DNA of 64,000 nucleotides from Roseivivax sp. GX 12232 (GTDB taxonomy: Bacteria; Pseudomonadota; Alphaproteobacteria; Rhodobacterales; Rhodobacteraceae): NCBI RefSeq assembly GCF_021272185.1, contig NZ_JAJSEC010000003.1, positions 124,001 to 188,000 of the forward strand, in the 5' to 3' direction. Position numbers and translations under genes: made by a program. The notes beneath the pieces were generated by a model. It was not told the origin of the DNA and ran no database searches. It worked only from the letters and a program-made list of their open reading frames with translations. This document shows, one piece after another, positions 25,146 to 26,750 of the stretch. Each line of letters opens with the position of its first letter. The stretch's first letter is position 1.

Positions 25146-25436
25146 ATGTCGCGCGTGTGCGAACTGACCGGTAAAGGCCCGATGGTTGGCAACAATGTCA
25201 GCCACGCCAACAACAAGACCAAGCGGCGCTACCTGCCGAACCTGAACAACGTGACCCTGCAGTCCGAGACCCTGGGCCGTGGCGTGAAGCTGCGGATCTC
25301 CTCGGCGGCGCTGCGCACCGTGGATCACCGCGGCGGGCTCGACCGGTTCCTGGAGAAGGCCAAGGACAGCCAGCTGTCCGACGTGGCGCTGAAGGTCAAG
25401 AAAGAGATTGCCAAGGCGCGCGCCGCCCAGGCCTGA
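25146..25436 (+). CDS. rpmB: 50S ribosomal protein L28
   Basis: 96-residue alphaproteobacterial-type L28. It starts [28 protein letters not shown], as split by [16 protein letters not shown] and [12 protein letters not shown], the family signature, and ends with a basic helix [12 protein letters not shown]. The start follows ACGAGGATGAACCC. It is monocistronic, with a strong intrinsic terminator 22 bases after the stop. Confidence 0.98.
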
Positions 25437-25457
25437 TCCTTTCGGAAGAACGCGAAG

Positions 25458-25489
25458 AAGGCGTGTCCGCATGGCGGCGCGCCTTTTTT
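25458..25489 (+). terminator. Terminator of rpmB
   Basis: AAGGCGTG (25458-25465) pairs with CGCGCCTT (25478-25485), with one G-U pair, and runs into a TTTTTT tract ending at 25489. Confidence 0.85.
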
Positions 25490-25641
25490 GTTGTGTCGTG
25501 GCGGGCTTGGTGGGGGCGTGGCGGCGCGGGGCGCGCGCGCCCGGTGCCGGAGCGCCGGTTCGGCAAAGGGACGCTTGGTCGCGGGCCCCAGACCCCCGGT
25601 GCGGCTTTCCCGCGTCCGCGCCAGCGGGTAGACAAGCGCCC

Positions 25642-25983
25642 ATGCACGCCCGCCTCCTGTCCCTCTGCCTGGCCGTCCTGCTCGCGCTGACCAGCGTCGA
25701 GACGGCCGCCGCGCGCGCCGCGCCGCAGCCGGCGGACAGCGTGGTGCTCTGCACCGGGCTCGAGCGGGTGGTGATTCACCTCGACCGCGACGGGCGCCCG
25801 GTGCGGCAGAGCGTGCTCTGCCCCGATGCGGGCGATGCGCTGCTGGCGCTCGACCCCGAGACCCTGGCCCTCGCCCCCCGCGAAGGTGTGCTCACCGCGC
25901 CCCGCTGGGCGGCCACCGCGCGCCATGCCTCCGGCCGCAGGGGCCCCGCGCCCCGGGCCCGGGCGCCGCCTGCAGTGCTCTGA
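25642..25983 (+). CDS. Secreted 113-residue protein with RAPP C-terminus; candidate copper-linked regulatory upstream ORF
   Basis: Starts with a signal peptide (MHARLLSLCLAVLLALTSVE, cleavage near AAARAA). The mature part has VVLCTGLERVVIHLD (Cys37) and QSVLCPDAGDALLALD (Cys60). This resembles DUF2946/CutF-type proteins, although the usual CPxC reads CPDA here. The C-terminus is Arg/Pro-rich and ends ARAPPAVL; the RAPP at 107-110 matches a known ribosome-arrest motif. A perfect 8-bp stem-loop starts one base before the stop codon, and the copper chaperone gene follows 48 bases later. I infer a leader protein that senses copper or secretion and controls the next gene. It could instead be an ordinary periplasmic protein. 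No strong ribosome site precedes the ATG. Confidence 0.65.
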   Translation: MHARLLSLCLAVLLALTSVETAAARAAPQPADSVVLCTGLERVVIHLDRDGRPVRQSVLCPDAGDALLALDPETLALAPREGVLTAPRWAATARHASGRRGPAPRARAPPAVL

Positions 25984-26009
25984 AATCCCAAAGAATTTCC
26001 AGATTTCAG
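25980..26009 (+). promoter_or_regulatory. Stem-loop between the RAPP protein gene and the copper chaperone gene
   Basis: CTGAAATC (25980-25987, including the TGA stop) pairs perfectly with GATTTCAG (26002-26009) around a 14-base loop. The loop contains TTTCC (25996-26000), which could pair with GGAAA (26016-26020) in the downstream ribosome site. A ribosome halted at the RAPP codons (25960-25971) would reach the 5' arm. Confidence 0.6.
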
Positions 26010-26031
26010 CAGCCGGGAAAGGACCCCGCAG

Positions 26032-26583
26032 ATGTTTCGCACCTTCCTTGTCGCCGCGGCGCTTGCCGCAACCGCCACGCTTGCCAACGCCGAGATCCGC
26101 GTCTCGGACGCCTATATCCGCTCGGCCACGCCGGTTTCGCCGACCGGCGCCGCCTTCATGGTGATCGAGAACACCGGCGCGGCGCCCATGCGCCTGACCG
26201 GCGCCGCCTCCGAGGCCGCCGCCCGGGTCGAACTGCACAGCCACAGCGAGGACGCCAGTGGCATGATGGTCATGGGCGAGATCGAGGGCGGCATCGAGAT
26301 CGCCCCGGGCGCCAGCCACCGCCTCGCGCGCGGGGGGGATCACGTAATGTTCATGGGGCTCGCCGATGCGCTCGAAGAGGGCGCCAGCGTGCCGCTGACG
26401 CTGATCTTCGAGGACGGCAGCGAGGTGGCGCTCGAGGTGCCGGTCGACCGCGAGCGGCAGGACGCGCATGGCGGTCACGGGGAGATGGATCACGGTTCGG
26501 GTGATGGCGCGATGGGCCATGGAGAGATGGACCACGGCGGCATGGACCACGGCGCGGCCAAGGACGACAGCGCCAAGGAGTGA
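26032..26583 (+). CDS. Periplasmic copper chaperone PCuA(C)
   Basis: 183 residues with signal peptide MFRTFLVAAALAATATLANA. The cupredoxin-like domain has the canonical H-x10-M-x21-H-x-M copper site: VELHSHSEDASGMMVM, then IAPGASHRLARGGDHVMFMG. The C-terminal ~35 residues are His/Met/Gly/Asp-rich (HGGHGEMDHGSGDG; GHGEMDHGGMDHG), an added metal-binding tail found in longer members. PCuA(C) delivers Cu(I) to cytochrome oxidase. The ribosome site is GGGAAAGGA. The preceding 113-residue ORF and stem-loop suggest copper-responsive translational control. Confidence 0.93.
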   Translation: MFRTFLVAAALAATATLANAEIRVSDAYIRSATPVSPTGAAFMVIENTGAAPMRLTGAASEAAARVELHSHSEDASGMMVMGEIEGGIEIAPGASHRLARGGDHVMFMGLADALEEGASVPLTLIFEDGSEVALEVPVDRERQDAHGGHGEMDHGSGDGAMGHGEMDHGGMDHGAAKDDSAKE

Positions 26584-26663
26584 GCCGGTGATGCGCGGGC
26601 CTTGCTTCAGGTCCGCGCGCGGCGTCGCAGGTTGCGCCGGGCTGACTGACCCGGCCAGCCTTG

Positions 26664-26695
26664 CTTCTGAGCTTCTGAGCTTCTGAGCTTCTGAG
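26664..26695. repeat. Octanucleotide tandem repeat, four copies
   Basis: CTTCTGAG is repeated four times without a mismatch between the copper chaperone gene and the sirtuin gene. It lies outside any gene I accept. Copy number could vary by slippage. Confidence 0.9.
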
Positions 26696-26750
26696 CCTTG
26701 GGGCCCTTAGACCGCAACCCTCCGCGCCCTCGGCCCCGCTGAACGCACAG

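Follow-up and report, generated by a model that had tools for sequence, protein, structure and literature searches.

The closest described systems are the leader peptides CutF of Rhodobacter capsulatus (cutFOG) and CruR of Bordetella pertussis (DUF2946, bp2923), together with the arrest peptides ApdA and ApdP. CutF, found via iterated profiles rather than Pfam (PMC8456105), is described as needing a signal peptide, a Cys motif, a Pro-rich end and a stem-loop, and in the published tests its proline-rich end was not enough by itself for strong arrest. CruR is reported to need RAPP for expression, and PcuAC is named among the genes that lie in operons with CruR homologues. RAPP and RGPP are described as robust arrest motifs and RDPP and RSPP as partially permissive, and the copper chaperone PCu(A)C is listed among the genes enriched downstream of RAPP/RGPP small ORFs (PMC12992588). 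PCuAC/PccA has also been published among the common neighbours of CutF-like/DUF2946 leaders.

A first-pass annotation of the window (the whole 64,000-nucleotide stretch of Roseivivax sp. GX 12232 analysed here) had proposed that a 113-residue ORF ending in ARAPPAVL is an arrest-peptide-type leader of the CutF/CruR kind placed before a PCuAC gene. We found this ORF ahead of PCuAC as proposed, with 48 nt from its stop to the PCuAC start, and the assignment to this kind of leader is borne out by an RxPP end, a PCuAC neighbour and an RNA complementarity that are conserved in the family. These features, together with the Cys spacing and the extension of the complementarity through the stop codon, are directly visible in the sequences. 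The leader is probably a member of the already described class of metal-responsive translation switches, and we consider it likely that this CutF-like peptide governs PCuAC translation in cis.

The leader ORF and its surroundings

With 113 residues and RAPP at codons 107-110, the ORF has the size and ending of CutF-like/DUF2946 small ORFs (fewer than 150 aa, PP in the last 15 residues); the motif had been correctly recognised and placed slightly differently, at codons 108-110 (Table 1). Past the hydrophobic start there are two cysteines, C37 and C60, the latter in a CPDA and not a CPxC context, as already noticed, so that the window leader has CPDA where the CruR subgroup has CXXC. Its score against the Pfam DUF2946 profile is 12 bits, below the cut-off of 23.7, with an alignment that runs nearly end to end; of ten scanned relatives, six match this profile at E <=1 (one above the cut-off and five below) and four have no match.

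Table 1. Features of the leader-PCuAC locus (positions in the window)
Feature	Position	Strand	Remarks
Leader ORF (uORF), CutF-like/DUF2946-like, 113 aa	25642..25983	+	stop TGA 25981-25983; C-terminus ARAPPAVL
Likely Sec signal peptide, residues 1-26	25642..25719	+	by inspection only (hydrophobic start); aligned relatives have similar N-termini
C37 codon, first conserved Cys	25750..25752	+	invariant in 34-row alignment
C60-P-D-A, family CXXC position with second Cys replaced by Ala	25819..25830	+	CXXC in 66/127 loci
RAPP arrest-type motif, codons 107-110 (CGG GCG CCG CCT)	25960..25971	+	three codons before stop; putative stall register by analogy with ApdA/ApdP (PMC10951233)
Stop-codon hairpin	25977..26013	+	predicted fold; 5' arm 25977-25987, loop 25988-26001, 3' arm 26002-26009 plus 26011-26013
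Probable PCuAC ribosome-binding site GGAAAGGA	26016..26023	+	sequence
PCuAC periplasmic copper chaperone, 183 aa, Met/His-rich tail	26032..26583	+	Pfam PF04314, E 5.8e-36

The tail of the chaperone (26470-26580), with repeats like GEMDHGGMDHG, is likely an extra copper-binding segment. Rfam returned nothing up to E 1 in 25400-26720, and a scan of the same region, covering sigma-70-type promoters and terminators, found none. A single-protein query with the window leader found no relatives in the genome_contigs and viral_contigs collections. Concerning further leader copies in the same genome, two weak matches (E 0.0057 and 0.099) proved on inspection not to be of the leader kind, and a third had an E of 6.6.

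Conservation of the leader and of its neighbour

The comparison covered 127 loci of the genus and the family, counting that of the window. Strong leader homologues (E 2.1e-13 or better) are present in seven of the nine genus genomes, and matches at E <=0.1, including some that were not individually checked, in 142 of 198 family genomes (own genome counted in both cases). An R[G/A/D/S]PP motif stands near the leader C-terminus in 124 of the 127 loci (RGPP 69, RAPP 43, RDPP 10, RSPP 2) and is followed by exactly three residues in 84 of these 124; the motif is not scored in L069, where RGPP has a longer tail, in L097, whose frame is disrupted, or in L144, which has QAPPP. The motif is present in 26 of the 27 relatives whose query alignment stopped short of it; among other open frames of at least 100 codons in the same loci, 11 of 1283 carry it (last 24 residues). 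Its conservation is therefore not merely a product of query selection.

A same-strand PCuAC gene follows the leader in 123 of the 127 loci. The next gene is PepSY_TM in three of the others (L134, L144 and L145; Pfam E 4e-58 or better in all three) and is unclear in the last (L148). A second set of 80 loci from named records (Ruegeria, Roseovarius, Sulfitobacter and other Rhodobacteraceae), whose genomes partly overlap those of the first, has RxPP in 79 and PCuAC in 79, the missing PCuAC belonging to a contig that ends after 143 nt.

The search for homologues upstream of other PCuAC genes, suggested by the first-pass annotation, thus gave conservation, with two exceptions in the genus. Genome G005 has no leader homologue and keeps a PCuAC gene (L157) with no recognisable leader upstream, which makes it a natural comparison strain. 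G003 (L170) has only a more distant leader-like ORF, with the end LPRAPPASPSR and its stop at 1342 of the oriented locus, and another PCuAC gene shortly after. There are 26 PCuAC matches in the genus. Under a strict rule, nine of them have an RxPP-ended frame in the examined stretch, two of these frames being about 700 nt from PCuAC; a tenth case (L153, with the L004 leader) fails the rule through its long tail. The leader is therefore tied to particular PCuAC copies and not to all.

Several individual loci depart from the common arrangement. Two leader-PCuAC pairs (L150 and L061) share a strand of contig C47 of G020 (157.3-161.2 kb) and are separated by about 2 kb. In the genus relatives G001 (L151) and G002 (L152), a second PCuAC gene is preceded at a distance of about 700 nt by another type of small ORF, which contains HCPFCHK and has a RAPP end (stops at locus positions 823 and 807). 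Finally, the leader frame is broken before RxPP with PCuAC kept in L097 (G151) and L247 (Meinhardsimonia xiamenensis), probably one genome, through either natural loss or sequencing error.

Within the leader, C60 is nearly invariant in a 34-row alignment. The Cys-RAPP spacing of the CruR subgroup (45, kept to one or two residues) is closely approached, with a Cys-to-RxPP distance of 43 in 94 of the 123 scored loci and of 41-45 in 122 of them, and the distance corresponding to C37-C60 is 23 in 109 of 119. CXXC is absent from all seven genus leaders (CPDA in five, CPDG in one, CPEA in one), and its second Cys is lost in about half of the PCuAC-leader group, window included. Two cysteines 23 residues apart are as compatible with a disulfide as with a metal site, and other RAPP-type arrest peptides sit before protein-localisation genes (PMC12992588), as would fit a leader that senses Sec export or the thiol redox state of C37/C60 instead of copper. 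We regard this as decidedly unlikely, given that the neighbour is a copper chaperone in 123 of 127 loci.

Complementarity of the leader end with the spacer

Pairing of the leader's last seven codons plus stop reaches -15.71 kcal/mol with the spacer of the same locus and -11.98 with those of other genomes (n=118), an own-spacer residual of -3.73 (p 2.5e-15). Three upstream control segments show smaller excesses (residuals -0.40, -1.08 and -0.32, the middle one with p 0.002), and the PCuAC coding sequence as target gives -0.04. The RxPP codons alone have little excess (-0.43 and -0.48, and -0.01 against mid spacer). For the 8-mer that ends with the stop codon, the spacer contains a perfect complement in 15 of 118 loci, compared with 0 of 118 for PCuAC stops and 2 of 114 for other junctions; with the 8-mer shifted upstream, the count is three (6 nt), two (9 nt) and then zero to one (12-48 nt). 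Likewise, the 6-mer of last codon plus stop is exactly complemented in 19 of the 80 named loci, against 0-5 for shifted 6-mers. An unbroken stem of at least 8 pairs through the stop is found in 34 of 118 loci, against 9% of swaps, and is absent in about 70%. Among the named loci, three leaders have a TAA stop: that of L194 (Sulfitobacter marinus) is matched by TTA, and the other two lack an exact match. In L134, L144 and L145, where the leader lies 36-40 nt before PepSY_TM, complementarity between stop region and spacer can also be seen by eye.

The complementarity persists while the residues after RxPP vary, a pattern that suggests selection at the RNA level. The second proline codon of the motif is more often CCT than other Pro codons are (41 of 121 versus 227 of 1997), an excess that is compatible with pairing and equally with codon bias or pausing. 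CutF was first proposed as a copper-binding component (PMC8456105), and the present leader could similarly be a copper-binding protein of the periplasm that has a proline-rich tail and is simply co-transcribed with PCuAC, the hairpin after it having no regulatory role; between Cys and RxPP the sequence shows poor conservation, yet its length, the RxPP and the RNA complementarity are kept, and we find this explanation very improbable.

In the window, the perfect 8-bp stem-loop annotated over the stop codon is present (CTGAAATC/GATTTCAG, 25980-25987 / 26002-26009, stop inside), and in the fold of 25975-26031 it grows to 11 bp with one bulge. By itself the hairpin does moderately better than shuffled sequences (z -2.6 for the 32 nt of 25981-26012, z -1.9 for the 57 nt of 25975-26031), and the 84-nt fold of 25960-26043 is ordinary (z -0.8). 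The helix stops two bases short of GGAAAGGA and could, through its position, hinder 30S binding.

A different pairing, of the loop TTTCC (25996-26000) with GGAAAGG at the ribosome site (26016-26022), had been put forward as the switch. Both motifs are present, but over 111 loci the own-partner residual is +0.55 kcal/mol, in the wrong direction, and we rejected this pairing as unsupported in the family. The initial interpretation therefore stands for the type of leader and its conservation and falls for the loop.

In the published CruR mechanism, a stalled ribosome shields the transcript from Rho, and control is exerted at transcription termination and not at initiation. The leaders studied here share the RAPP end and a similar Cys-RAPP spacing with CruR, and three relatives precede PepSY_TM, a gene type of the CruR operon. 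However, the spacers measure 30-57 nt in 105 of 123 loci (median 42), against the 162 nt described for cruR, and a translational switch requires just such a hairpin, on the stop and next to the ribosome site; termination control is in our opinion unlikely.

Covariation tests gave a mixed picture. RNAalifold found no structure in 30 mixed rows, the stop helix plus two to three Pro-codon pairs in 15 rows chosen after that result, and only four stop-helix pairs (-0.08 kcal/mol) in 18 Ruegeria-group leaders, among which three omitted Ruegeria rows had been restored. These 18 rows were scored on a hand-drawn structure against 500 shuffles. Cells changed on both sides (10 versus 4.2; reached by 0/500 shuffles) and the covariation score (0.097 versus 0.062; 1/500) stand out, unlike paired cells (78.7% versus 77.0%; 40/500 as high), pairs changed on both sides (4 versus 2.7; 90/500) and further pair types (6 versus 6.5; 401/500), and a slide of -2 scores 0.100, matching the drawn structure itself. 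One Ruegeria pair beside the stop covaries (C-G in 10, U-A in 5, other in 2 of 17), and alignment-based covariation in the Ruegeria columns is otherwise weak.

We tentatively suggest that the RxPP codons and stop might be dual-coded, as a protein arrest signal and as an RNA arm pairing with the PCuAC ribosome-site region, so that the paused ribosome itself would occupy the repressing arm, and that about half of the family might sense via two cysteines 23 residues apart instead of CXXC. Such dual coding would be clearest in some Ruegeria (CCTCCTGT versus ACAGGAG). Because of the mixed covariation and the small residual of the RxPP codons, we hold this somewhat more doubtful than we did before those results.

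A possible switch and its relation to described leaders

For control of PCuAC translation by the leader in cis, we infer stalling, copper as ligand, the sign of the response and an effect on PCuAC as follows. The nascent chain would be exported, with its conserved Cys region just out of the exit tunnel when RAPP is at the peptidyl-transferase centre. A spacing of 43 residues sets the cysteines about at the tunnel exit. By analogy with ApdA/ApdP, Pro109 (codon at 25966) would occupy the P site and Pro110 the A site. The state of the Cys region, most likely copper-bound versus copper-free, would determine how long the pause lasts. When there is no pause, the last codons and stop would pair with the spacer, forming a hairpin that lies next to the PCuAC ribosome site or covers it and holds translation down; a paused ribosome would keep the 5' arm unpaired, and PCuAC would be made. 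It had been suggested that a stalled ribosome would cover the 5' arm: with Pro109 in the P site and an assumed footprint, its edge would fall at about the stop codon, covering roughly half of the 11-bp arm and leaving the rest.

We modelled this step by masking the leader up to the assumed edge of the stalled ribosome and predicting the cost of opening the ribosome-site region. Over 118 loci the mean predicted cost falls from 7.6 to 4.5 kcal/mol, the mean gain being 3.2 against 1.9 with shuffled spacers, and a gain of 2 or more is predicted in 68 loci against 37 with shuffled spacers. The window is an exception, with a predicted change from 7.2 to 8.1 kcal/mol and a worse value under three other definitions as well, because early PCuAC codons offer its ribosome site a pairing partner.

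Copper starvation is reported to induce a B. japonicum operon with a PCuAC homologue (PMC12617631), and the CruR target gene is described as on without copper; for these reasons we lean mildly towards low copper causing the pause and PCuAC synthesis, and copper causing release and shut-off. The reverse sign, in which copper on the nascent chain lengthens the pause and switches PCuAC on, is reported for R. capsulatus CutF, where a Sec signal is combined with a short spacer and with a stem-loop that covers the downstream site (PMC9973294). PccA (PCuAC) is, on the other hand, described as required for oxidase assembly at low copper, and the CutF end PEPEGPPPRL lacks RxPP whereas the PCuAC-leader family has the CruR type of end; a response with the CutF sign is here the less probable of the two, by a modest margin.

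Against the proposed translational switch count the lack of predicted site opening in the window, the absence of strong arrest by the proline-rich end of CutF alone, the weak covariation, the missing second CXXC Cys and the sub-cut-off DUF2946 score, as well as the excesses in control segments, the small RxPP-codon residual, the restriction of the long stem to 34 of 118 loci and the leaderless G005.

The class as such is already published, and the gain lies in mechanism and not in kind. In the literature searched, supplements apart, we found no description of a helix through the leader stop codon in the PCuAC group, which may still be in print, nor of the loss of the second CXXC Cys in roughly half of its members; none of the terms 'stem-loop', 'secondary structure' and 'mRNA structure' appears in the PMC12992588 main text. 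The locus links a copper chaperone of oxidase assembly to a putative translation-arrest-type sensor in a large, mostly marine bacterial family, whose natural variants (CXXC loss, altered hairpin partners, leaderless relatives) may serve the study of how metal sensing is coupled to initiation.

As described, ApdA and ApdP share the terminal motif of the window leader and differ in preceding protein-localisation genes (PMC12992588). CutF resembles it as a small leader, Sec-secreted in CutF and probably so in the window, with a Cys motif, a Pro-rich end and a copper gene downstream, and the CutF stem-loop at the downstream ribosome site may have a counterpart in the predicted hairpin of the window. 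CutF differs by its CxxxC, its PEPEGPPPRL end and its control of the multicopper oxidase CutO, where the window has a lone C60, a RAPP end, PCuAC downstream and a predicted helix through the stop codon. CruR is alike in having RAPP three residues from its end and a Cys-RAPP spacing of 45 against 43. Its reported differences are a CXXC of which both cysteines are needed for copper control and which is lost in the window, a 162-nt spacer, Rho-dependent termination and a dispensable signal peptide. The PCuAC-leader family is thus a combination of CruR's type of end with CutF's short spacer.
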